A stretch of 64,000 bases of DNA, taken from Halobacteriovorax marinus (lineage in GTDB: Bacteria; Bdellovibrionota; Bacteriovoracia; Bacteriovoracales; Bacteriovoracaceae). The notes under the pieces are model-generated. The model was not told where the DNA came from, did no database searches, and saw only the letters and a list, made by a program, of their open reading frames with translations. Location of the stretch: the NCBI GenBank assembly GCA_002163155.1, contig MAAO01000015.1, forward strand, positions 1 through 64,000, in the 5' to 3' direction. Each line of letters opens with the position of its first letter. The first letter of the stretch is position 1. Below are positions 951-16,023 of the stretch, piece after piece. A program made the position numbers and the translations under genes.

Positions 951-3686
951 CTATCCTACACAACTGAGAATGGCCGCTGCCACTTTCTCTTGATTTGTCT
1001 TATCCACAAACTTATTAAAACCACTACGTTCACTGCGTTCTTCATCTATATTGGAAATTCTACTTCCCATAGCAACTACAGGAATATCTGGATTCGTTTC
1101 TCTAATATGTTTTACTAGTTCCCACCCATTTAAATTTGGCATATCAAGATCAGTTATAACCAATTTCAAATCGGCGTTTTCCTTAATCCTATCCTTTGCC
1201 TCTATTCCATCGCATGCCAAGATAACGTCAAAACCTAATTCACTAATAACTTCCTTTTGAACACGACGATGCATAGGGGAATCATCCACTAATAGTATTT
1301 TTGATCCATGAATGATGGGTTCGCCTTTGCTACTACTTTGTATATCTACGAGACTATGAATATCTAAGAGAGAAACAGTTTTTTCATTTACAAAAAGTGT
1401 ACCCATAATACCGTCACGATCAGAAGTCTCAACATTCACATCGCTCTGACTAAAGGCTATATCTTTTATCGATTTCACTACTAATCCAAAAAAGGTTCCC
1501 CGTATTTTTACAACTACACACGCAATAAAATCATCCTGACCCGCATCCTCTCTTCTAAGTTCAGATGCTCCAGAAAGATTCAAAGCTTTCTCAATATCCA
1601 TTAAAATCATAGGCATATTTCTATAGCGAACGAGAGGTTGCTCACCAGTCCACTCGACGCTGCTAAAGGGAAACTCTTCTAATCTATTTACAAGACACAG
1701 AGGAATACCGTAATTCCTCTTATCTCCAAGTTCAGTGAGGAGTATTTCTTGAGACTCTCCATCAGAAATGAGATTTGCTTCTTCATCGGAGGAAGATATA
1801 TCTGCTTTTTGAGTTTTACCGCTATCAACAGAATTAAAAAACCCTAGGGCATCAATAATGAGGGCAACACGTCCATCACCCATAATAGTCGCTCCACCAA
1901 AGAGATTTAAATCTTTGAGTTTTCGTGACAAAGGCTTGACTACAATCTCTTCTGTGTCCAAAACATTATCGACAATCAATCCGTAACACTGGCCTTCAGC
2001 ATTTAAGATAACAATATTTAAAGAGTCACTAATGTTCCCGTTATCCTCTGATTCGATCTCTACAAGTTGTAATTTACTATTTAATCTAAAGACTGGAATG
2101 AGTTCACCTCTAAGTCGATAAAAATCAGAATCATGAACTTTTTCAATTCTAGTCTCTTCTAATTCTTTCTCAAGACGTACTAATTCCACTAAATTAATCT
2201 GTGGGATGGCAAATGTTTCCTCAGCAGATCTAATGACAAGAGCTGGAACAATTGCAAGCGTTAGTGGTATTTTTAATTTAAAACTTGTTCCATAGCCAAC
2301 TTCGGAAATAACATCGACAGATCCGCCAATTTTTTCAATATTACTTTTCACCACATCCATTCCGACTCCACGTCCAGAAATATTTGTGACTTGCTCAGCA
2401 GTAGAAAAGCCTGGAGTAAAAATAAGATTTAGGATTTGTCTTTCCGAAAATGTTTCAGCTTTTTCTTTGGAGATGACATTTTTACTTACGGCTTTTGCCA
2501 ATATTTTTTCAGGGTCAATCCCATTACCATCATCACTTATTTCAATCGTAACCTGACCACCTTCGTGATAAGACTTAATAGAAATATTCCCCTCTTCCGT
2601 TTTACCATTCGCAACTCTATTTTCTGGAGTTTCTATTCCATGGTCTACTGAGTTTCGTACTAAGTGAGTCATTGGATCACGAATGGCCTCCAAGAGTGTT
2701 TTATCTAGCTCAGTTTCTTTTCCAGAAATAGATAGTTTTATGCTCTTTCCTTGATTTCTTGATAAGTCTCTAACGATCCTTTCGAATTTCGTAAGAACAC
2801 TTCCCACAGGCTGCATTCTTGTTGTCATGATATCGTTTTGCAAATCAGTAGTAATAACGTTCAATTGTTGCGCTAACCTATTGAGCTCTGAAGAGTCATA
2901 ATTGTTAGCATATTGTAGAATTTGATTTCGATTTAAAACTAACTCTCCAACCACATTCATGATTTTATCTAAAAGTTGAACATTAACTCTTACGACACTA
3001 TCTGTAAGACTCATGACTTTCTTAGAGTCAAATTTTTCTTCAGTATTTACTTCTTCAACTACAGGTTGTGCTTTCACAACATCCACCTTTTTCACCTTTG
3101 CCAAAACTTCTTTAACTGGTTTCACGACTTCTGAAACAGGAACTTCAACATCTTTAATTTCATCTTTAATTTCATTTTTAATTTCATCTTTAATTTCATC
3201 TTTTTTGATGTTTTCAACTTGTGAAAGATCTTCAATAGCTTCACAAATTAAAACTGAATCATTGGGCTCAATAAGTTTTTGGTTCTCAATGGGGCTATCA
3301 GGTTCAGAAACTTTTTCTAACCTTGAAATAAGTTCTGAATAATCTTTACTCCCCTCTTCTTTTGTATTCTCAATATTTTTCAACATTTCCAAACACGCAT
3401 CAAAGCTTTCAAGGAGAACATCAATTATTTTTGAATTGCTTACTAATTCACCTTCACGAATAAGATCTAAAATATTTTCAGAACAATGAGTAACGCCCTC
3501 TAGTTTCTTTAACCCTAAAAAACTTGCAGACCCTTTTAATGTATGAACTTTTCTATAGATAGAATTTAATAGTTCTGTATTTTCATGTTGATTTTCATAT
3601 TTGGTAATCTCCTCACTGATTCCAGAAAGGTTATCGAAGGATTCAATTAAAAATTCATGAAGAATTGTTTCATTTACATCAGTCAT
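951..3686 (-). CDS. cheA: Hybrid chemotaxis histidine kinase CheA with C-terminal receiver domain
   Basis: About 911 residues, much longer than a standard CheA (~650). In order there is an Hpt domain with the phospho-accepting His in KVHTLKGSASFLGL, a linker with DEIK repeats, the P3 dimerisation helix (LLDKIMNVVGELVLNRNQ), a HATPase domain (LVRNSVDHGIETPENR, DDGNGIDPEKI, GRGVGMDVV), a CheW-like domain, a second diverged CheW-like region, and a receiver domain with LLVDDSPM, the phospho-Asp in VITDLDMPNLNGWELV and Lys in FVDKT. A CheA-CheY fusion of this kind occurs in FrzE of Myxococcus. A GTG at 3710 would add eight residues, but ATG 3686 gives a cleaner Hpt start. First gene of the cheA-cheW-PAS operon. 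Confidence 0.93.
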   Translation of the reverse strand: MTDVNETILHEFLIESFDNLSGISEEITKYENQHENTELLNSIYRKVHTLKGSASFLGLKKLEGVTHCSENILDLIREGELVSNSKIIDVLLESFDACLEMLKNIENTKEEGSKDYSELISRLEKVSEPDSPIENQKLIEPNDSVLICEAIEDLSQVENIKKDEIKDEIKNEIKDEIKDVEVPVSEVVKPVKEVLAKVKKVDVVKAQPVVEEVNTEEKFDSKKVMSLTDSVVRVNVQLLDKIMNVVGELVLNRNQILQYANNYDSSELNRLAQQLNVITTDLQNDIMTTRMQPVGSVLTKFERIVRDLSRNQGKSIKLSISGKETELDKTLLEAIRDPMTHLVRNSVDHGIETPENRVANGKTEEGNISIKSYHEGGQVTIEISDDGNGIDPEKILAKAVSKNVISKEKAETFSERQILNLIFTPGFSTAEQVTNISGRGVGMDVVKSNIEKIGGSVDVISEVGYGTSFKLKIPLTLAIVPALVIRSAEETFAIPQINLVELVRLEKELEETRIEKVHDSDFYRLRGELIPVFRLNSKLQLVEIESEDNGNISDSLNIVILNAEGQCYGLIVDNVLDTEEIVVKPLSRKLKDLNLFGGATIMGDGRVALIIDALGFFNSVDSGKTQKADISSSDEEANLISDGESQEILLTELGDKRNYGIPLCLVNRLEEFPFSSVEWTGEQPLVRYRNMPMILMDIEKALNLSGASELRREDAGQDDFIACVVVKIRGTFFGLVVKSIKDIAFSQSDVNVETSDRDGIMGTLFVNEKTVSLLDIHSLVDIQSSSKGEPIIHGSKILLVDDSPMHRRVQKEVISELGFDVILACDGIEAKDRIKENADLKLVITDLDMPNLNGWELVKHIRETNPDIPVVAMGSRISNIDEERSERSGFNKFVDKTNQEKVAAAILSCVG
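3151..3205 (-). repeat. 12-bp tandem repeat in the cheA linker (DEIK units)
   Basis: About four to five copies of a 12-base unit (TTAATTTCATCT on the plus strand) encode DEIKDEIKNEIKDEIK between the Hpt domain and the P3 helix. The unit is a multiple of three, so copy-number change would lengthen the linker without a frameshift. Confidence 0.8.
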
Positions 3687-3777
3687 TTTATTCTCATACA
3701 AATAGTTCACACGGAATTATGTTTCGTTAATGAAATTATTTTAAATGAAATAAAAAAATGAAGCACATTAAAGTTTC

Positions 3778-3817
3778 CTCAAGTTGTTAGCAATAAAGCC
3801 ATTGCAAACAACTTGAG
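3778..3817 (-). terminator. Long hairpin downstream of the acidic membrane protein gene
   Basis: Arms CTCAAGTTGTT (3778-3788) and AACAACTTGAG (3807-3817) pair perfectly. After one A/A mismatch, GCAAT/ATTGC continue the stem to a 6-base loop. It lies directly after the stop of the 3822-4889 gene and before the cheA promoter region. The U-tract on the minus strand is poor (GAAACTTTAATG), so termination is inferred from stem strength and position. Confidence 0.6.
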
Positions 3818-3821
3818 TTCT

Positions 3822-4889
3822 CTATTTACAGAATCTTGTTTCGGCCAATGTATTGATATTGTCGACTTGAACAGTACGACAATCAATGAAACTTCGATAG
3901 ACATTCGAAGGGTAACATTCAGGAGATTTAGAGTTTTGCTTACTCCAATCATTATTCTTTTTGCAGTTCAAATAACTTTCTTGATCAACGCAGGCCCAGT
4001 GTTTGCCTGTACAATTATAAGCAAGACCTCTCCCTGTATTTCTATAATTTGGAGGTTCTTGATAAGTTAACTTTTCTTTTACAACACTCTTAATCATCTT
4101 ACTTTCATCGGACTCTTTTGCTAAATTATCTAAGGCCTGTGAAAGATCCTTGTCTTGCCCAATCTTTTCACTAGGACTTTCTCCCATTGCGGCGTCCATA
4201 GCGGGAGCAGGAGCAGGATCAGTTTTTAAACTCAGAGCATTGTCTATCATGATTTCTTTAGGAGCTGGTTCAGGTTCTTTCACCTGTACAGCTTTTAGAA
4301 CTGGTTCAACAGGGGGCACTTCTTTGACTTCAACTGCCTTAGGCATGTCTTTTGCCATTTTCTTGGGAGCATCTTTAGCGACATCTTCTTTACCAGCAGC
4401 TTTATTAGCTGCTGCTGCTTTCTTAGCTGCTAATTTCTTTAAACGTCTTCTCTTTGAAGCTGCTAGCTGCGCAGGTGTTTTCTTCTTTCTTGCCTTTCTC
4501 TTTCTCGTTACAGGCTTTTGTTGAACAAGTTCCTCATCTCCACCCAAGAAGGTATCAACTCCAAGAACTACAAGTAAGCCTACGATGCCTAATCTTATTA
4601 TTTTTTGTTTTTTCTTTTTCTTTGCTGCTTCTTCATCGTCGTCTTCATCTTCTTCGTCTTCTTCATCTTCGTCTTCAAATTCCTCATCTTCATCATTTGA
4701 TTCAGATTTAGCTTTTGGCTTCAGTTTATCCTTAACGTTTATTTCTTCCGTTCTATCTTCAAACTCACCTTCTTCGACTTCAAACTCATCGTCGTCTTCA
4801 AATTCTTCATCAGATGAATTTCCACCCGGCAGTTTTGACCTTATCGTACTTACAAGGCCTTCCATTTTCTCTTTTAGATCGTCAAACAT
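3822..4889 (-). CDS. Acidic single-pass membrane protein with cysteine-containing C-terminus, function unknown
   Basis: The frame is open from 5039, but the supported start is ATG 4889, preceded by AAAGGAAAGAAG; the upstream extension would run into the divergent aldolase gene. The product is about 355 residues. It has a highly acidic N-terminal half (runs of E/D around residues 25-110), a lysine block, one hydrophobic segment (IIRLGIVGLLVVLGVDTFLG), then an Ala/Lys/Pro-rich stretch (KKLAAKKAAAANKAAGK). The C-terminal ~70 residues have several cysteines (NCTGKHWACVDQESYLNCKK). The acidic part is predicted cytoplasmic and the cysteine region periplasmic, where disulfides could form. I do not recognise the family. 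Confidence 0.75.
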   Translation of the reverse strand: MFDDLKEKMEGLVSTIRSKLPGGNSSDEEFEDDDEFEVEEGEFEDRTEEINVKDKLKPKAKSESNDEDEEFEDEDEEDEEDEDDDEEAAKKKKKQKIIRLGIVGLLVVLGVDTFLGGDEELVQQKPVTRKRKARKKKTPAQLAASKRRRLKKLAAKKAAAANKAAGKEDVAKDAPKKMAKDMPKAVEVKEVPPVEPVLKAVQVKEPEPAPKEIMIDNALSLKTDPAPAPAMDAAMGESPSEKIGQDKDLSQALDNLAKESDESKMIKSVVKEKLTYQEPPNYRNTGRGLAYNCTGKHWACVDQESYLNCKKNNDWSKQNSKSPECYPSNVYRSFIDCRTVQVDNINTLAETRFCK

Positions 4890-4974
4890 TCTTCTTTCCT
4901 TTGGAGGAATCAATAACTTATAATGTTCATAGTTATATAACTTATCGAATTTTAATAAAAAAGGTTGAGAGAAA

Positions 4975-5586
4975 GTGATTGATGATGGTGTAATTAAATA
5001 CGATAGGTCTAATTTTTCCCACTCAGGACCTTTAAACAAAGATTCTTGGGGTGATTTAGAGCAGTGGAGAGAAAAGCTCTACCAATTAAATCTCATTGGG
5101 GAGTACTTGCCTGAAAAGGTCGGTTTTGGAAATCTCTCAAAACTCTTAACTAGAGAAAAGGGAATTCAATTTGTTATCACTGGAACACAAACAGGTAAGT
5201 TCAAGAATCTAACAGGTGATCATTACTCACAAGTAGAAGGTTACGATCTAGAACATATGAAACTCTTCTCTAGAGGACCGCTTGAACCCTCTAGTGAGGC
5301 GCTAACTCACGCAGCTGTATATGAATCAGTTTCCACAATTAGTGCAGTTTTTCACATTCATAGCACTAAGATTTGGAAAGAAATGATCGACAATAACTAT
5401 GACGCTACTCCCGAAGATGTACCTTATGGAACACTTGAAATGGCGACTTGTGTGCAAGAGCTCATTGCTAAAAAAGAAAGTGGAACTATTGTCATGAAGG
5501 GTCATCAAGATGGTGTTATTGCCTATGCAACGACTCTAGATGAGTGTGGCAAACTTATCCTAGACTTAGCTAAAAAGTTTCTCTAA
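4975..5586 (+). CDS. Class II aldolase/adducin family protein
   Basis: 203 residues starting at GTG 4975 behind TTGAGAG. The class II aldolase metal-site motif is visible as HIHST (VFHIHSTKIWKEM, near residue 127), with an upstream N/G segment (VGFGNLSKLL) and FVITGTQTGKFKNL, where the family binds substrate phosphate. A third metal ligand is probably the His in VMKGHQDGVIAY. Family members act on sugar phosphates or methylthioribulose phosphate; the substrate cannot be named here. The gene converges with the ATP-grasp gene and overlaps its 3' end by 21 bases. Confidence 0.85.
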   Translation: MIDDGVIKYDRSNFSHSGPLNKDSWGDLEQWREKLYQLNLIGEYLPEKVGFGNLSKLLTREKGIQFVITGTQTGKFKNLTGDHYSQVEGYDLEHMKLFSRGPLEPSSEALTHAAVYESVSTISAVFHIHSTKIWKEMIDNNYDATPEDVPYGTLEMATCVQELIAKKESGTIVMKGHQDGVIAYATTLDECGKLILDLAKKFL

Positions 5587-6561
5587 CTCTCTTCTAGTAC
5601 TTTCTAGCTCTTCTAAGGTTTCACTAGAGATTGCAAAAGATATAAAGCGATCTGCTGGAGAGAGTAATTTTACTGATAATTTTTCATTTTCTAGTTTTGA
5701 GATAACTCTTCTTATTTCCTCGAAACTTGTCTTGGACTTATTCGATGCAATTATCCAGGCTAGATACTCTCCGCTAAAGTACCTTTCCAAAGACTTAACC
5801 ATGAGCCCCATAGTCTTTCTATAATTGACCTCTACAAAAGGGTGAAAACCTTTTTCGTAACTGAAAGTATCAACTTGAATTGACCCCTTGGCCCCAAGAG
5901 AAATGAGTTCATTCCTAATAACGTTTAGTAATTTAACATTGTCACTTCCAATCGTTTTAGAAAAATGATCGCCACTAACTAATCTTCCACCTTTAAACTG
6001 ACCTTTAGAATCTATATAATTTTCAACAATAAATTGAGTCTTACTATCTAAATCAAAAGTAATTCCGTAATCATGGCTCTTTTCAATTTTTGAACTAAGT
6101 ACAAATCGACCATTTGGTAATTTAAAATCATCTCGTGACTTAAATGTATAACTACCACGTCCAGAAAATCCCCACTCTTCTCTAGCAATAATAGGGAATT
6201 CTAAATTGGAAATATTCTTAGGATCAACAGTCGTAGCTATTGGTATCCAATCATTTTTAAGACCTAATTTAGTCATTTCAATTTTAGAATTAAATAACTT
6301 ACTTAACTTTAAGTCTTGATAATTTCCCCACCAGGCAATTGAAGCTCCCTTAGAGGTTATTCCATTTGAAACAACTCCTAAGCTAGAGATATAGTTTAAA
6401 TAGTCTTGTGTAAAAGTGTAATCGGATTTTAAGATAGCTTCATCTAATTCATTGATGAAGAAAAAGATATGATCAAACCAACTGGCTCCTTTTAGTTGTT
6501 TTTTAGAGCCAGCTAATTCTAATTCATAGTTATAATCAATATGAAATAATTTCTCTTTCAC
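5566..6561 (-). CDS. ATP-grasp family ligase-like protein
   Basis: 331 residues. The central segment FPIIAREEWGFSGRGSY looks like the ATP-grasp nucleotide-binding loop, and GSIQVDTFSYEKGFHPFVEVNYRKTMG resembles the family's metal-binding end (acidic residue, E-x-N-x-R). The N-terminal third is not recognised. It starts 4 bases after the helicase stop, so it is translated from the same transcript. ATP-grasp enzymes join a carboxylate to an amine or thiol through an acyl-phosphate; the substrate is unknown. The association with an RNA helicase is unusual. Confidence 0.7.
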   Translation of the reverse strand: MKEKLFHIDYNYELELAGSKKQLKGASWFDHIFFFINELDEAILKSDYTFTQDYLNYISSLGVVSNGITSKGASIAWWGNYQDLKLSKLFNSKIEMTKLGLKNDWIPIATTVDPKNISNLEFPIIAREEWGFSGRGSYTFKSRDDFKLPNGRFVLSSKIEKSHDYGITFDLDSKTQFIVENYIDSKGQFKGGRLVSGDHFSKTIGSDNVKLLNVIRNELISLGAKGSIQVDTFSYEKGFHPFVEVNYRKTMGLMVKSLERYFSGEYLAWIIASNKSKTSFEEIRRVISKLENEKLSVKLLSPADRFISFAISSETLEELESTRRELEKLFS

Positions 6562-6565
6562 TTAT

Positions 6566-9226
6566 TTATTTTTTCTTTCCAGTAAATTTTCTTTTCTTCG
6601 TTTTCTTCTTGCCGAACGATCCATCTTTTCCACCAGACTTTTTAGAATAGGATTTTTTGAAAGCTGCAGCTGCACCGCCGCCTGCACCTCTTTTTGGCCC
6701 ACCTTTTCTTGGTCCACCTCGCCGGGCAAATTTCCTCTGGCTAAAGCAATCTTCACAAATAGCAAACTTAGAATTATCTTCAAGCTTCTTTCCACAACTA
6801 GAACATGTGGGGACAATTTTTGCTGATAGAAGAGTATTTAACTTATCAACTGCTAGCCCTTTATTTTCTAAGAGATCACTCTCATTAAACATGAAGTTCT
6901 TATTATCAAAATGTCTGGCAAGCCATTGATAGAGTTCCACACATTTAATGGCGGTTTCTAGATAATCAATATCATTAGAATTTGAATCGACCGGCTCATT
7001 TAATATGCCCTGGGATTTTACAAAGTGAGTTAAGATCCACATATAGTATTGCACATGCTCAAGTAAACCTTGATTCACAGGTGCGCAAGCAAAACCAAAG
7101 ATCTCGGAACTAGTGAGATTACCTTCAGGATCGGCATCTTCCACCATCTCTGCGAGTTCAATCATTTCCTTCAATTCTACACAATAGAATGGTTTCTTAA
7201 AATCCATTGTGTGAAAGAGTCTGAGAAACTCTGAGAGTTTTAACCCAGGAAGATTACTTTCCTCTAGAGCAGCGTTGACCTGATTATAGATTTCTAAATC
7301 GGGACCAACCATACATTGAGTCGATTGATCTAATTTTGCTTCGAGGGCTTCATTGATTTCACCAAGTCCACCTTCAACTTTAGTCAGAGTTGTGGTGTAA
7401 CCTGTAGGGAAGCGTTTAAATCGGCCGGCACGTCCAGCAATTTGTTTGATCTCACTTTGTGTGATCATATGCTCTTTTCCATCAAAGAATTTTGTAAGTG
7501 TAGAGAATACAATTCTTCTAATAGGAAGATTCATTCCCATTGAGATAGCATCTGTACTAACAATGATATCTGTTTCACCTTCATCGAATTTTCTCGCCTG
7601 CTCACGTCTTACTTCAGGACTTAATCTTCCGTAAACAATGGAAACGCCAAAACCTATCTTCTCTAGGTCCCTTTTAAATCTAAGGGCATTTCTTCTAGAG
7701 AAAACAATGAGTGCATCATTTTTTTCAAGCTGTCCCACAACGATGGGCTTTGGTTCAACCTTTAATTCTGTCATTCGTTCGTAATTATTTACAACTAATT
7801 CATCACCACAAAGATCTGCGACTTTCTTTACTAAGTCATAGGCAGATGCATCTCCGCAGACATGAATTTCGGGAGCATTCATATTAACAAGTGCTCTCGT
7901 CCAGGCCCAGCCTCTTTGCTTATCCGTAATCATTTGAATTTCGTCAATGACACAACAATCAAATTTTTCTTGAAAACGCGCCATTTCAATTGTTGAAGAA
8001 AAATGTGTTGAACCTTCTTTTTCAATAACCTCTTCACCAGTTAACAGTGTAGTGGTGGCGCCTTTAGAATTTAGTGTATCGTAGAGCTCACCGGCCAATA
8101 GCCTAAGCGGAGCTAGGTAACAACCACTCTTGGCCTTACTTAGCGCCTCTACAGCGTGATAAGTCTTACCTGAGTTTGTTGGACCCATGTGGTAGATAAT
8201 AGTTCTCTTAGTTTCTCTAGCAGCAGAGTGAATCCAAAACTCTCCAAGATAATCATTTAAAATCTTAGAAGAAACATCTTTCTTCTTTAAGATAACAATG
8301 GCACGTACGAACTTGCGAAATTCTCTTTGCAAGTATCTCTTACCTTTCCAAAAATTAGTAGAAAGCGTTCCAAAGAATTTTACATATTCAGAGTCAGTGA
8401 TTAAGTCTTCAGAAAATTCATTATGACTAAGCCATTCTCTCAAGTGAGGAATAATATTTCTTGAATGGTCTTTTGCCAGCTCACTGGGGTAATTAAATCT
8501 TTCGTTTAAACTGCTTTTAATCTGAGATTCAAGTCGATTAAGTGACGATCGTTTTAATTTATTTCTAATCTTAAAAATTGTCTTATCTAGGTCTTTTTGT
8601 AATTCATTATAAAGATCACTCACAACCTCTAGAGGCTTATTTAAACTCTCTTCAATCTTCTTTTCACCTAGATCAATGCATTCCATACAACTTTCTAAAA
8701 CATACTCTCTAAGTCTTGTTCTATGAATTCCTACGCAGTTCATACACTGGCAATCAAGTTCAGAAAGTCTAAGCTCTAAATTAAAGTTTTCTAAAATAGT
8801 GGACTGAGTCTTTAAGTGAAAATCTTTCTTTTGCACACTCCACTCATGAAGAGCTTTCTGATGCAGAGTCATGATATTTAAATTGATTCCCCCATCTTGT
8901 CCAAAGAAGTATCTTTCTTGCTCAGGAAATAAACAATCATCTAAGAAGATTAAATCTAAGACATTATCTCTTTGCAGGAAATCGTAAAAAGGAATGTACT
9001 CTTTTCCAAATAGAGGAATGAGCGAGGGAAATTCTGTAAAAAAGGCGTGAAGAGACTTTTGAATATCTCTGACAAAATCTAGGATGATGGAAGCATCTTC
9101 GAGAGATCGAACATACTCATCATCATCACTGAAATTATTAATTTTTATTATTGTTTTTCTTTCTGTCTCTAGTTGATCTTTGACGTCATCAAATTCTACT
9201 AAAGAAGGGACTTCTGATTGGACCAC
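6566..9226 (-). CDS. SUV3-type ATP-dependent RNA helicase with two cysteine motifs and a basic tail
   Basis: 886 residues from GTG 9226 behind GGAG. The helicase core is unusually close to the mitochondrial SUV3 family: motif I GPTNSGKT (~residue 344), motif II DEIQMITDKQRGWAWTRAL (~428), a C-terminal RecA domain with VSTDAISMGMNLPI, and motif VI QIAGRAGR (~597). The N-terminal ~340 residues are lineage-specific and carry a CxCxxC...CxxC cluster (CQCMNC, CMEC, ~157-181). The C-terminus has a four-cysteine ribbon (CSSCGKKL...CEDC, ~807-826) and a Gly/Lys-rich tail. SUV3 unwinds RNA for degradation with an exoribonuclease partner; a similar role here is inference. No RNase gene is adjacent. Confidence 0.88.
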   Translation of the reverse strand: MVQSEVPSLVEFDDVKDQLETERKTIIKINNFSDDDEYVRSLEDASIILDFVRDIQKSLHAFFTEFPSLIPLFGKEYIPFYDFLQRDNVLDLIFLDDCLFPEQERYFFGQDGGINLNIMTLHQKALHEWSVQKKDFHLKTQSTILENFNLELRLSELDCQCMNCVGIHRTRLREYVLESCMECIDLGEKKIEESLNKPLEVVSDLYNELQKDLDKTIFKIRNKLKRSSLNRLESQIKSSLNERFNYPSELAKDHSRNIIPHLREWLSHNEFSEDLITDSEYVKFFGTLSTNFWKGKRYLQREFRKFVRAIVILKKKDVSSKILNDYLGEFWIHSAARETKRTIIYHMGPTNSGKTYHAVEALSKAKSGCYLAPLRLLAGELYDTLNSKGATTTLLTGEEVIEKEGSTHFSSTIEMARFQEKFDCCVIDEIQMITDKQRGWAWTRALVNMNAPEIHVCGDASAYDLVKKVADLCGDELVVNNYERMTELKVEPKPIVVGQLEKNDALIVFSRRNALRFKRDLEKIGFGVSIVYGRLSPEVRREQARKFDEGETDIIVSTDAISMGMNLPIRRIVFSTLTKFFDGKEHMITQSEIKQIAGRAGRFKRFPTGYTTTLTKVEGGLGEINEALEAKLDQSTQCMVGPDLEIYNQVNAALEESNLPGLKLSEFLRLFHTMDFKKPFYCVELKEMIELAEMVEDADPEGNLTSSEIFGFACAPVNQGLLEHVQYYMWILTHFVKSQGILNEPVDSNSNDIDYLETAIKCVELYQWLARHFDNKNFMFNESDLLENKGLAVDKLNTLLSAKIVPTCSSCGKKLEDNSKFAICEDCFSQRKFARRGGPRKGGPKRGAGGGAAAAFKKSYSKKSGGKDGSFGKKKTKKRKFTGKKK

Positions 9227-9283: not shown

Positions 9284-10471
9284 CTAACGGTCTAGTTCTA
9301 CTACGAATGAAAGACCAAGTTTAGCAAATTTTGCTGCGTGATTTGAACCACCTCTTGATTGTTCTATTGTATCACGAGAGGTGTGAATGTTGTTATTCAT
9401 ATCATTTTTCTTTGCTTCAAATGGCATTGATGCAGGGTAACCTTGTCCATGCCATGATGCGTGATCAGAACAACCGTATCCACATCTGTCGTATCCCCAA
9501 CTCACAGTTGGAAGGTACTTATCAAGTAGAGTTCCAATGAATTCATTTTGTTGTTGGTTAGTGTAATCAGTCATCATAACGATATCTAAATCTGAACCTT
9601 TGAAATTTGTCATATCTAATTGCATAACTCCGATGATGTTGGCACCTTCAGCTTTCATTTCAGCAGCAATTTCTTTAGAACCTAAAAGTCCTACTTCCTC
9701 AGCTGCGTAACCCATAAACTTTAGCGTTTTAGTCGGCTTAAAGTCTGTCTCAACTAATACTCTAATAATTTCCGTTATAGTCGCTATACCTGAAGCGTTA
9801 TCATCAGCTCCTGGAGCATGGGCCCTTTCTCTTCCCCAAAAACCAGCAATTGAATCAAGGTGACCACCAACAATGATTGTTTCTTCTGACTCACCTTTTA
9901 TAGTTAAAATAACAGAAGGCTGTTTCCAACGAGCATGTTGATATAATTCAACACTAGCATCAGACCTATTGGTCACGAGTGAAGCCCATTTCTCAGAAAT
10001 CCACTTCGCTGCTTGAAGTCCTGTTTCAGATTTATAGTATCTATTTCTATAACTAGATAATTTCTTAATAACATTGGTGATGTTCTTTTCACTAACCTGT
10101 CCAATAAGAGGTGTAACTTCATCTTCAGCCGTTAGAGCGTAATCGGCAAACGGTGCAGACTTAGCAAAGTTTCTCTTTTCTACAGCATTAATCGAAGCAA
10201 GTGCATCTTCTAGAGAGTCGTGAAGCATGTAACCACCACAACGATTAAATTTTTCGTGCATTTCGTGACTTAATTGCAGTAGTGCATCTTCATCAATTTC
10301 GATGAGAGAAATTCCCCCAACTTTCTTAACGGCCTTCATTTTTTGTCCAAATAATTTATTGGAAAAATTTACGGCATCACTATCAATTGTAATAAGTTTT
10401 TTACTTGGTGCGGCAAAGATGTTTGCACTTAACAGTAGAGAGAGTGAAATCCATTTCAACGAGTTCTTCAT
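9284..10471 (-). CDS. Secreted M28 leucyl aminopeptidase (Vibrio aminopeptidase type)
   Basis: 395 residues with a signal peptide ending at ANIFA. All dizinc ligands of the Vibrio proteolyticus aminopeptidase family are visible in order: GGHLDS, PGADDNASG, the catalytic Glu pair AAEEVG, QLDMTN, and NNIHTSRDT. The cysteine pair CGYGCSDHASWH also matches. The ~100 residues between signal peptide and catalytic domain look like a removable propeptide. It should release N-terminal, mainly hydrophobic, amino acids outside the cell, consistent with feeding on protein. It stands alone, with the helicase gene's start upstream of its 3' neighbourhood. Confidence 0.95.
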   Translation of the reverse strand: MKNSLKWISLSLLLSANIFAAPSKKLITIDSDAVNFSNKLFGQKMKAVKKVGGISLIEIDEDALLQLSHEMHEKFNRCGGYMLHDSLEDALASINAVEKRNFAKSAPFADYALTAEDEVTPLIGQVSEKNITNVIKKLSSYRNRYYKSETGLQAAKWISEKWASLVTNRSDASVELYQHARWKQPSVILTIKGESEETIIVGGHLDSIAGFWGRERAHAPGADDNASGIATITEIIRVLVETDFKPTKTLKFMGYAAEEVGLLGSKEIAAEMKAEGANIIGVMQLDMTNFKGSDLDIVMMTDYTNQQQNEFIGTLLDKYLPTVSWGYDRCGYGCSDHASWHGQGYPASMPFEAKKNDMNNNIHTSRDTIEQSRGGSNHAAKFAKLGLSFVVELDR

Positions 10472-12730: not shown

Positions 12731-14761
12731 TTAAATTAAACCACCACGTCTTAACAGCGCATCTGGAGTTGGCTCAGATCCACGGAATTTCTTATATAAT
12801 TCCATTGGATGTTCAGTCCCCCCTTTAGAGAGAACATTGTCTTTAAATTTGTTGGCAATCTCTCTATTAAAGATTCCATTTTCTTTAAAGTATTCAAAGG
12901 CATCTGCATCGAGTACTTCTGCCCACTTATAAGAGTAGTAACCTGAAGAGTATCCTCCAGAAAAGATATGTCCAAAAGAAGTCGACATCATTGTTCCTTC
13001 CACTTGTGGAAGAAGACTAGTAGAACTCATGGCATCTTTTTCATACACTTCAGCATTTGTCACATCACTTGTATTCTTAGAGTGCCAGGCCATATCTAAA
13101 TTGGCAAAACTGATTTGTCTAAGAGTGGCCCTCGCTTCGTGGAAGTTAGAGCTGTCTTTGATTTTCTGAATGAGTTCAGTTGGAATAATTTCACCTGTTT
13201 TGTAGTGCTTGGCAAATAGGTCTAAACACTCTTTCTCATAGGCCCAGTTCTCAAGGATTTGAGAAGGAAGCTCTACAAAATCCCAGTAGACATTTGTTCC
13301 CGAAAGACTAGCGTACTTGGTATCTGCAAGCATTCCGTGAAGAGCATGACCAAATTCGTGAAATAAAGTTGTCACTTCATTGAAAGTTAATAGTGAAGGT
13401 TTTGTCTCTGTTGGTTTTGTAAAGTTACAAACTATTGACACATGTGGTCTTAGAACTATACCATTAAGATTGGATTGACCGCGGTAAGCTGTCATCCATG
13501 CCCCATTTCTTTTACCAGTTCTTGGAAAAAAGTCTGCGTAGAAAACTGCTACGTGCTCACCAGATTCATTAGTCACTTCGTAAGTCATAACGTCACTATG
13601 ATATTTTTGAATGTCTTTTTTCTCAGTGAAAGAAAGTCCAAATAACTTTGAAGCTACTTGAAAAACACCATCGATAACATTTTCAAGTTTAAAATATGGT
13701 TTTAACATTTCATCATCAACACTAAATTTTTCTTTCTTTAATTTCTCTGCCCAAAATGCATAATCCCAAGATTGAAAATCTTCTGCTCCACCATTTTTAA
13801 CGGCATATGCTTTGAGTTCATCAATTTCACTTACTGCAGCTGTTTTAGCTTTGCTTAATAGGTTCTCTAAAAAGTCTTGAACAGTTTTAGGATTAGACGC
13901 CATTCTCTCTTCTAATGTAAAATCTGCGTGAGTGTTATATCCGAGAAGTTTCGCTCTCTGATGTCTAAGAACAGAGATTTTCTTTATAGCTTCTTTATTA
14001 TCTAGCTCATCGCCTTTACAAGACTTTGTTCCATTGGCCCTAAAGAGCTTCTCTCTAAGCTCTCTTTTCTCAGCATATGTCATAAAAGGAATTAAGCTCG
14101 GGTAATCAAGAGTAATAACCCACTTCCCCTCGTGTCCCTTTTCTTTGGCAGTCATTGCTGCCGCTTCAACTACGCCTTCAGGAAGACCAGCAAGATCAGA
14201 CTCATTTTCAAGAATCATTTCATAAGAGTTCACTTCTTTTAAATTATTGTCTCCAAAATTTAATTTTAAAGTTGAAAGTTCCTCATCAATTTGTCTAAGT
14301 TCATTCTTTTGTTCTTCATTTAAAAGAGCACCATTTCTTACAAATGACTTATAGTTCTTTGTCAGAAGCATAAGATCTTCCGTATCAAGTCCTAAAGACT
14401 CTTTCTTATCAAAAATTTCTTTCACTCTTGAGAAGAGTTCAGCATCTAAGAGAATATCATTTCCGTAAGCTGTAATTTTTGGGGAAAACTCTTTAGCAAT
14501 TTCTTGCATTTCATCATTTGTTTCAGCGGATAATAAGTTAAAGAAAACTTCTGCCGTTTTCTCTACTAGTTCTCCAGAATTTTCTAGTGCTACAACTGTG
14601 TTTTCAAATGTTGGAGCTTCACTACTGCTCTTAATTTTTTCAATGTTTTCTTTAGCTGCCTTGATGGCACTCTCAAGTGCAGGCAAGTAGTGTTCATTTT
14701 TAATTTCTTCAAATGGAACAGTACCAAATACTGTTTTGTATTCATTTAGGATTGGATTCAT
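12731..14761 (-). CDS. M3 family metallopeptidase (dipeptidyl carboxypeptidase / oligopeptidase type)
   Basis: 676 residues, the normal length of Dcp/OpdA. The zinc site is LFHEFGHALHGML (~residues 465-477) with a downstream Glu in NVYWDFVELPSQILENW. The N-terminal FGTVPFEEIKNEHYLPALE is a family hallmark. There is no signal peptide, so it is cytoplasmic and probably degrades short peptides from imported or turned-over protein. Its start overlaps the stop of the carrier gene upstream by 4 bases (ATGA type), so the two are translationally coupled. Confidence 0.93.
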   Translation of the reverse strand: MNPILNEYKTVFGTVPFEEIKNEHYLPALESAIKAAKENIEKIKSSSEAPTFENTVVALENSGELVEKTAEVFFNLLSAETNDEMQEIAKEFSPKITAYGNDILLDAELFSRVKEIFDKKESLGLDTEDLMLLTKNYKSFVRNGALLNEEQKNELRQIDEELSTLKLNFGDNNLKEVNSYEMILENESDLAGLPEGVVEAAAMTAKEKGHEGKWVITLDYPSLIPFMTYAEKRELREKLFRANGTKSCKGDELDNKEAIKKISVLRHQRAKLLGYNTHADFTLEERMASNPKTVQDFLENLLSKAKTAAVSEIDELKAYAVKNGGAEDFQSWDYAFWAEKLKKEKFSVDDEMLKPYFKLENVIDGVFQVASKLFGLSFTEKKDIQKYHSDVMTYEVTNESGEHVAVFYADFFPRTGKRNGAWMTAYRGQSNLNGIVLRPHVSIVCNFTKPTETKPSLLTFNEVTTLFHEFGHALHGMLADTKYASLSGTNVYWDFVELPSQILENWAYEKECLDLFAKHYKTGEIIPTELIQKIKDSSNFHEARATLRQISFANLDMAWHSKNTSDVTNAEVYEKDAMSSTSLLPQVEGTMMSTSFGHIFSGGYSSGYYSYKWAEVLDADAFEYFKENGIFNREIANKFKDNVLSKGGTEHPMELYKKFRGSEPTPDALLRRGGLI

Positions 14762-16023
14762 AGATACTCCTTATTTGTCTTTAAAACTTTTTCTTGAACT
14801 TTAAATAAAGGAATTAATACAAAAAACCACGCAATTAGACAAATTCCTAAGCAATAATCTACAAAAGTTTCGCTTTGATAAAAAACGAGCACTACTGAGA
14901 TCACACCTTTTGAAAGACGGTAGATAACCATATCCACCACATACTTAGCACCATACTTTTGCCTCGCAACTAGTGGAAAATAAAGCATTTCCTTAGCCGC
15001 ACTAAATAAAGAATAATCAGTTCCTTTAAATAAGATAAAAGTCAGGGCGACAGGAAGTAGTGACGCACTCCCCAATGTGAAGCCGAGGCTAGACACCAGA
15101 AGAAAGAAAATAGGTATAAATATGTGAATTGTGCGGTTTTTCACAACATTAAAGAGAAAAGGAATAATTAAAACCTGCATAAAGAGAGAAATTCCGTTGA
15201 TGGCAGAATAGAGATTCCCTAGATAACTCACCTTTTCCGCTTTAGTTTGTACGAAACGTTCAAAGAGAATATTAAATTTAAAGTTCGCAAGGTTAATACA
15301 AAACTGGGAACAAATAATAATGAGAGCAATTAGAAAGACATATTTCTTAACTTCTAGAATTGAATGCAGTGGTGATTCATTCGTTCTCTTATCGAGCTTA
15401 TCTAAATTATCAAACTTCTTTCCTGTAAATTGAAAACAGACACAGGCAATTAAAATAAATACTGATCCAAAGAGTGCGATACCTTCGGCCCCTCCCAAAC
15501 TAGAGGCATAATTTGAAGTGATTTGACCCCCAATAATGCCCCCCATGGAACCTAGCGCTCCCATTGGCCCATAAATTGTTTTTGCGACCTTAAAGGACAG
15601 AATGGAATTAATGAAGGCCAACACCATATGAACCATCATAACGATGTAGACTTCCTTCCAAATAAAGAACACATACGCAAAGTTAGAGTTTCCTTGTTTT
15701 AGAAAGAATAAACTCACTGCAAATATAAGAAATGTTAAAATTCCGATAACCCAGAAAATAGAGTGTATTGATTTCTTTATTTGGAATTTATTGAAAATTG
15801 AGATTGTAATACTTAAGACAACTATAGAATAGAGCCAGGCATTGGGTGATTTCTTGGCCCCAAAAGTGTCTAGAAAAATCGCCTCGGCTGCACTCCTAAT
15901 CATAGGATAGGAAAAGAGTAGGAAGAACAAAGACAAACTGCCTAAGATTAAACCAACCTTTTTATCACGACTTAGATCCATAACCTGACTTTTTAAGTCA
16001 GAAAAATAATTTGAATTACTCAT
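14758..16023 (-). CDS. MFS-type carrier resembling ATP/ADP translocases (NTT/TlcA family)
   Basis: 421 residues with about 11-12 hydrophobic segments. The first helices contain LFSYPMIRSAAEAIFLDTFG followed by a Lys-rich loop, the same layout as in NTT/TlcA nucleotide carriers (small-aromatic helix, R, then acidic residue). The segment FKVAKTIYGPMGALGSMGGIIGG is also typical of this superfamily branch. True NTT proteins in intracellular bacteria exchange nucleotides with the host; many free-living bacteria carry NTT-like proteins of unknown substrate. The coupling to a cytosolic peptidase is notable. General MFS/NTT membership is likely; nucleotide transport is unproven. Confidence 0.7.
   Translation of the reverse strand: MSNSNYFSDLKSQVMDLSRDKKVGLILGSLSLFFLLFSYPMIRSAAEAIFLDTFGAKKSPNAWLYSIVVLSITISIFNKFQIKKSIHSIFWVIGILTFLIFAVSLFFLKQGNSNFAYVFFIWKEVYIVMMVHMVLAFINSILSFKVAKTIYGPMGALGSMGGIIGGQITSNYASSLGGAEGIALFGSVFILIACVCFQFTGKKFDNLDKLDKRTNESPLHSILEVKKYVFLIALIIICSQFCINLANFKFNILFERFVQTKAEKVSYLGNLYSAINGISLFMQVLIIPFLFNVVKNRTIHIFIPIFFLLVSSLGFTLGSASLLPVALTFILFKGTDYSLFSAAKEMLYFPLVARQKYGAKYVVDMVIYRLSKGVISVVLVFYQSETFVDYCLGICLIAWFFVLIPLFKVQEKVLKTNKEYL

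Follow-up and report, generated by a model that had tools for sequence, protein, structure and literature searches.

A gene on the minus strand of the 64,000-nucleotide window (the whole stretch of DNA analysed) encodes an 886-aa protein whose domain-model match, sequence, predicted fold and position in a tree all place it in the Suv3 helicase family. The helicase gene belongs to the core of the Bacteriovoracaceae-type family, from whose genomes full-length RNase R is absent. By analogy with mitochondria, we put it at about an even chance that the helicase and PNPase together replace RNase R in the decay of structured RNA. The gene, the parts of its protein and its two neighbours are located in the window as follows:

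6566..9226, minus strand: Suv3-family helicase gene, 886 aa, GTG start
8273..9226, minus strand: N-terminal all-helical domain, residues 1-318 (~310 aa), restricted to the Bacteriovoracaceae-type family
8816..8818, minus strand: codon of His137, candidate metal ligand, invariant (73/73)
8735..8752, minus strand: C159-x-C161-x2-C164, candidate metal ligands, invariant (73/73)
7781..8227, minus strand: RecA1 domain (DEXQc_Suv3), residues 334-482, Pfam PF22527, 4.2e-62
8162..8185, minus strand: motif I GPTNSGKT, residues 348-355, invariant
7931..7945, minus strand: motif II DEIQM, residues 428-432, with D428, E429, Q431 and M432 invariant
7418..7726, minus strand: RecA2 domain (Helicase_C), residues 501-603, PF00271, 3.9e-14
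7421..7444, minus strand: motif VI QIAGRAGR, residues 595-602, read from the sequence
6809..7417, minus strand: C-terminal helical domain of the Suv3 type, residues 604-806, aligning with human and yeast Suv3 at Z 30-36
6746..6805, minus strand: C808-x2-C811-x12-C824-x2-C827, candidate zinc site, 73/73 in the Bacteriovoracaceae-type family
6569..6745, minus strand: Lys/Arg/Gly tail, residues 828-886, predicted disordered, pLDDT below 50 from residue 836
9284..10471, minus strand: upstream neighbour, M28-type peptidase, adjoining the helicase gene in at least 63 of the 74 loci long enough, with no evident functional link
5566..6561, minus strand: downstream neighbour, 4 bases away, uncharacterised protein with a weak, ATP-grasp-like match to a PRK12767-type model (E 0.008), downstream in at least 51 of 70 loci

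The GTG start codon is preceded by GGAG 5 bases upstream. A preliminary description of this DNA had called the protein SUV3-type, and neither DEAD-box nor RecQ, from the motifs GPTNSGKT, DEIQM and QIAGRAGR. All three motifs are present in this open reading frame, and Pfam, PDB matches, fold and tree agree with the assignment. The PF22527 model scored 208.7 bits on the helicase against a cut-off of 27, whereas the Pfam DEAD model reached 22.3 bits (1.2e-4), under its cut-off of 26 and with motif II reading DEIQ, and the RecQ equivalog model reached 17.2 bits against a cut-off of 640. The closest PDB sequences were the Suv3 chain 6f4a of the mtEXO complex (2.4e-75) and human SUPV3L1 (about 3e-67), with proteins of the Ski2, Mtr4 and Hel308 types trailing at 6e-11 or weaker. 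Conservation was followed in two alignments, A1 with 30 loci out of 37 family genomes (own genome included) and A2 with the window and 72 of 80 loci, or 73 sequences. A length and completeness filter dropped L097, L124, L125 and L138 from A2, and L072, L075, L085 and L086 were omitted because, going by the listing alone, they are probably near-copies. Since 29 relatives with identity down to 51% keep the helicase features, chance was ruled out as their origin.

The AlphaFold2 model, built with 73 sequences, had a mean pLDDT of 81.9 and fell below 50 only at residues 836-886. Suv3 ranked first when the full model was searched with Foldseek (1.3e-32), and VIA-align gave Z scores of 35.6 for yeast Suv3 and 35.2 for human Suv3, while the next family reached 17.6. 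Across four Suv3 entries the scores were 35.6, 35.2, 34.4 and 30.2, with the C-terminal helical domain included in the match. The structural alignment to the human and yeast proteins begins at residues 306-327 and runs through 804-806, ending before the C-terminal Cys motif; because of this span, residues ~306-806 are, on the predicted model, a complete Suv3 core. The bacterial helicase shares RecA1, RecA2, the C-terminal helical domain and the motifs with eukaryotic mitochondrial SUV3 (human SUPV3L1; mtEXO Suv3, PDB 6f4a), at 33% identity over the structural alignment. It differs in that residues 1-305 are not recognisable as the eukaryotic N-terminal domain; its four-Cys module and basic tail fall outside the stretch that aligns.

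A tree was built from 35 rows, comprising 30 Suv3 proteins, among them ten rows from the Bacteriovoracaceae-type family, and five outgroup helicases that we take to be Ski2-like. The outgroup consisted of five weak DEXQc_Suv3 matches, three from genomes outside the family and two from within it. In this phylogeny with bacterial and eukaryotic SUV3, a check suggested in the preliminary description, the helicase grouped with Suv3 and not with another family, the 30 Suv3 rows standing on a 100/100 branch against the outgroup. Within Suv3, clades were recovered for the Bacteriovoracaceae-type family (100/100), eukaryotic Suv3 (97/95), an alphaproteobacterial long type on a long branch (100/100), and G043 with G334 (99/98), two genomes of another family of the phylum (f8). 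The joining order of these groups is mostly weakly supported, and the branch uniting the Bacteriovoracaceae-type family, eukaryotic Suv3 and Bacillota reached only 86/94. In an AU test run after the tree had been seen, forcing the Bacteriovoracaceae-type family together with G043 and G334 was rejected (p 0.017), and separate acquisitions of Suv3 by the two groups are therefore likely but not certain on the sequence data. The alphaproteobacterial long type (Sinorhizobium, Sphingomonas and, by the tree, Paracoccus) shares the Suv3-family core but is a distant clade that lacks the four-Cys module; its neighbours are an S4-domain protein, ferredoxin and CarD, whereas the helicase here has the M28 peptidase and others. 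Bacterial members of the family are not new, since the available text of a review places Suv3 in eukaryotes and purple bacteria (PMC5818665). Our search of the open-licence literature returned no study of this helicase, nor of Suv3 replacing RNase R.

Two cysteine clusters and a basic tail had been described as additions to the eukaryotic protein. The C-terminal cluster, given as residues 807-826, is present and invariant (73/73), but its true positions are C808, C811, C824 and C827. A CxxC-x12-CxxC motif of the same kind stands at the end of 8 out of 18 other Suv3 proteins (two from Azospirillum, and those of Lachnospira, Butyrivibrio, Priestia, Cytobacillus, G043 and G334), so that it is neither unique to this protein nor special to it. 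These bacterial proteins share the Suv3 core and the four-Cys module with the helicase, but none of the 18 has its N-terminal domain, and their own N-terminal regions differ or are nearly absent. The tail behind the module stood as described, with 39% Lys and Arg over its 59 residues and predicted disorder. Across 108 family proteins (of 110, some genomes being in both sets) its median composition is 36% Lys+Arg and 4% Asp+Glu.

The N-terminal domain is without recognised relatives. Predicted alone with AlphaFold2 it gave a pLDDT of 92.5 and was nearly all helix. A PDB sequence search with the domain gave no significant match (best E 0.09), Foldseek gave a best E of 1.5, and Pfam gave nothing above cut-off for the window protein, with weak matches scattered over family members. 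No Suv3 chain appeared among the structural matches listed, of which the best had Z 8.2, although weak or missing matches of this kind are compatible with a Suv3-type N-terminal domain; the likenesses to dynein, syntaxin and designed bundles, which reach Z 8.2, were taken as generic to helical folds. A profile of the domain found none of the 18 outside Suv3 proteins (best E 0.078). In 356 genomes of the phylum it gave 121 strong matches, all in the Bacteriovoracaceae-type family by hand count, and four weak hits (E 2e-4 to 6e-3) to open frames of ~200 aa in another family.

The first cysteine cluster lies in this domain. It had been placed at residues 157-181, and its cysteines are present, but at C159, C161, C164, C180 and C183, off by 1-2 residues. 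A single zinc cluster over C159-C183 was ruled out by variation at two of these positions: H137, C159, C161 and C164 are each found in 73/73 sequences, although identity to the window's N-terminal domain is only 25-50%, while C180 occurs in 30/73 and C183 is not conserved. The set is therefore a histidine with CxCxxC and not a five-Cys cluster. In the domain model, H137 falls within helix 116-146 and C159, C161 and C164 at the start of helix 162-193; because the invariant residues lie on these two helices, a metal site pinning them together is plausible. Of the two zinc ribbons proposed earlier, what stands is two invariant sites that are candidate metal sites judging from the sequence; the first is the H-C-C-C set, and the second recurs in other Suv3 proteins of bacteria.

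A strong DEXQc_Suv3 match (E 3.4e-34 or better) was found in 120/129 genomes of the Bacteriovoracaceae-type family, whose members include relatives named Bacteriovorax, Halobacteriovorax and Bacteriovoracaceae. All nine genomes without one are below 90% complete, and among high-quality genomes (completeness 90% or more, contamination 5% or less) the helicase is present in 73/73. Outside the family, only G043 and G334 have a strong match among 239 genomes of the phylum, the rest being weak, from 1e-11 downward. Two genomes, G113 (L159, L160) and G078 (contigs C1 and C20), hold two copies each and may represent assembly mixtures, since both show raised contamination (5% and 9%).

Gene order around the helicase was compared among relatives as lower-bound counts, hits beyond a set distance being uncounted. 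By operon logic and the loci of relatives, the conserved neighbours give no functional clue and show no connection with RNA decay. Between the helicase and the next gene (window 6561-6566), the relatives L061, L063, L068 and L116 carry a gene of ~270 aa that is missing in the window, presumably for a ferritin-like DUF455-type protein. An acidic protein of low complexity, with cysteines in its C-terminal part, is encoded at window 3822-5039; it is conserved nearby in relatives and has no Pfam match. At window 14758-16023 lies a TLC-type ATP/ADP transporter (PF03219, 2.7e-10), also near the locus in several relatives, which might help to take up nucleotides from prey. An origin of the helicase from a mobile element or phage was not supported, as the relatives in plasmid and phage records are all distant and cover less than 80% of the query. 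Salicola phage SCTP-2 (L152, 440 kb) encodes at 3114-4934 a helicase of the Suv3 type, with 33% identity (E 3e-58), under the annotation hypothetical protein 83. PADLOC matches were generic helicase-core matches, and a defence role was set aside.

The distribution of Suv3 in the phylum is clearly complementary to that of RNase R. Full RNase R (TIGR02063, E 1e-120 or better) was found in 0/129 genomes of the Bacteriovoracaceae-type family against 214/239 others (368 genomes in all), and any RNB domain in 8/129 against 222/239. The same holds for high-quality genomes, with full RNase R in 0/73 of the family and 153/161 of the others; these 161 hold a strong Suv3 match in 2 and an RNB domain in 156. 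The splits between the family and the others, and the high-quality counts of 73 and 161, were tallied by hand. G043 and G334 are themselves without any RNB domain, and none of the 222 RNB-bearing outside genomes has a strong Suv3 match. Among genomes outside the family, Suv3 thus occurs in 2/17 without RNB versus 0/222 with it (Fisher's p 0.005, for genomes that are not independent). PNPase (E 1e-100 or better) is present in 343/368 genomes. The search for an exoribonuclease partner, as first suggested, yielded one PNPase gene in the own genome, a full-length one, along with one RNase E/G and no RNB domain. The RNB match at G240:C7:152264-153235 falls within an open frame 24,670 codons long, which may reflect masked sequence or be a giant gene.

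Because the Bacteriovoracaceae-type family is without RNase R but retains PNPase, it would need a strong helicase for structured RNA. According to the available text of the sources, Suv3 acts together with a 3'-5' exonuclease, and in the mtEXO crystal its N-terminal domain contacts the nuclease (PMC5818665, PMC5758563). RNase R, described in the same review as a nuclease with its own helicase activity, is an unrelated enzyme that would share with the Suv3 system a role in degrading structured RNA in the 3'-5' direction; a similar role can be served in E. coli by PNPase with a helicase, and the rnr pnp double mutant is inviable (PMC5818665, as far as its available text goes). By extension from Suv3 biochemistry in mitochondria, the helicase would load on 3' single-stranded RNA ends in an ATP-dependent manner and open structured RNA so that PNPase can digest it. 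The C-terminal four-Cys module and basic tail might hold RNA or ribosomes, and the N-terminal domain, pinned by its putative H-C-C-C metal site, might be a docking site for a partner, for instance PNPase or RNase E. We infer that Suv3 and PNPase jointly cover the work of the absent RNase R in this family. The absence of RNase R from this family thus adds support to the role in RNA degradation suggested earlier, while the coupling to PNPase is drawn by analogy.

Several observations weigh against replacement. The genes for Suv3 and PNPase lie apart, on contigs C6 and C1, and nine DEAD-domain matches in the own genome (E 2e-37 or better) represent proteins that could assist PNPase instead. Eight genomes of the family hold a short RNB protein as well as Suv3; the nine proteins (L180-L188) are open frames of 488-613 aa, all under the RNase R and superfamily cut-offs, and a Pfam scan of four of them detected no cold-shock domain. 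One of the short proteins, L187, has an HTH_RNase_II domain. Five high-quality genomes outside the family are without RNB, and while G043 and G334 have Suv3, G047, G267 and G295 have no strong match, so that RNB loss does not require Suv3. Caulobacter has matches for both the Suv3 and RNase R families, and Suv3 is therefore not always paired with loss of RNase R. The correlation also rests on few independent events, as the Bacteriovoracaceae-type family counts as roughly one and G043 with G334 as at most one or two more. Since the Suv3 of G043 and G334 does not group with that of the family in the AU test, the pairing of Suv3 with RNase R loss may, on the sequence data, have arisen twice.

The small number of events also speaks for a different function, in which the helicase would act without PNPase, in ribosome assembly or in quality control of rRNA, and the absence of RNase R would be a coincidence of lineage. 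The basic tail and Cys modules would suit rRNA binding, and the own genome has other helicases for decay. We regard this function as unlikely though worth keeping in view, as the known Suv3 proteins in the two sources above work with exonucleases and both outside genomes with Suv3 are also without RNB. A helicase acting mainly on DNA or R-loops is distinctly improbable: Hel308-type DNA helicases are among the non-Suv3 sequence matches, and the title of PMC4207899 reports that rice SUV3 binds DNA as well as RNA, but sequence and fold are far closer to Suv3 than to Hel308. Use of the helicase to break down prey RNA during predation, a link raised in the preliminary description and suggested by relatives in Bacteriovorax and Halobacteriovorax, which we take to be predatory genera, found no support and is very improbable, as the gene occurs throughout the family, in a conserved order among ordinary genes, and has so few strong matches in the phylum's other families, which presumably also include predators.

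Replacement of RNase R by Suv3 and PNPase can be extended to a fuller proposal, in which the whole family swapped RNase R for a mitochondrion-style pair, with a new metal-pinned N-terminal domain coupling the helicase to PNPase or RNase E, and in which the swap was repeated in another family of the phylum. We put this forward tentatively and consider it doubtful as a whole. If true, the RNA degradosome of animal mitochondria would have a free-living parallel here. The family-wide presence of Suv3 without RNase R provides a clean natural test of Suv3 and PNPase standing in for RNase R. Replacement would explain how structured RNA is cleared in these bacteria and would offer a bacterial model of the human mitochondrial SUV3-PNPase machine.
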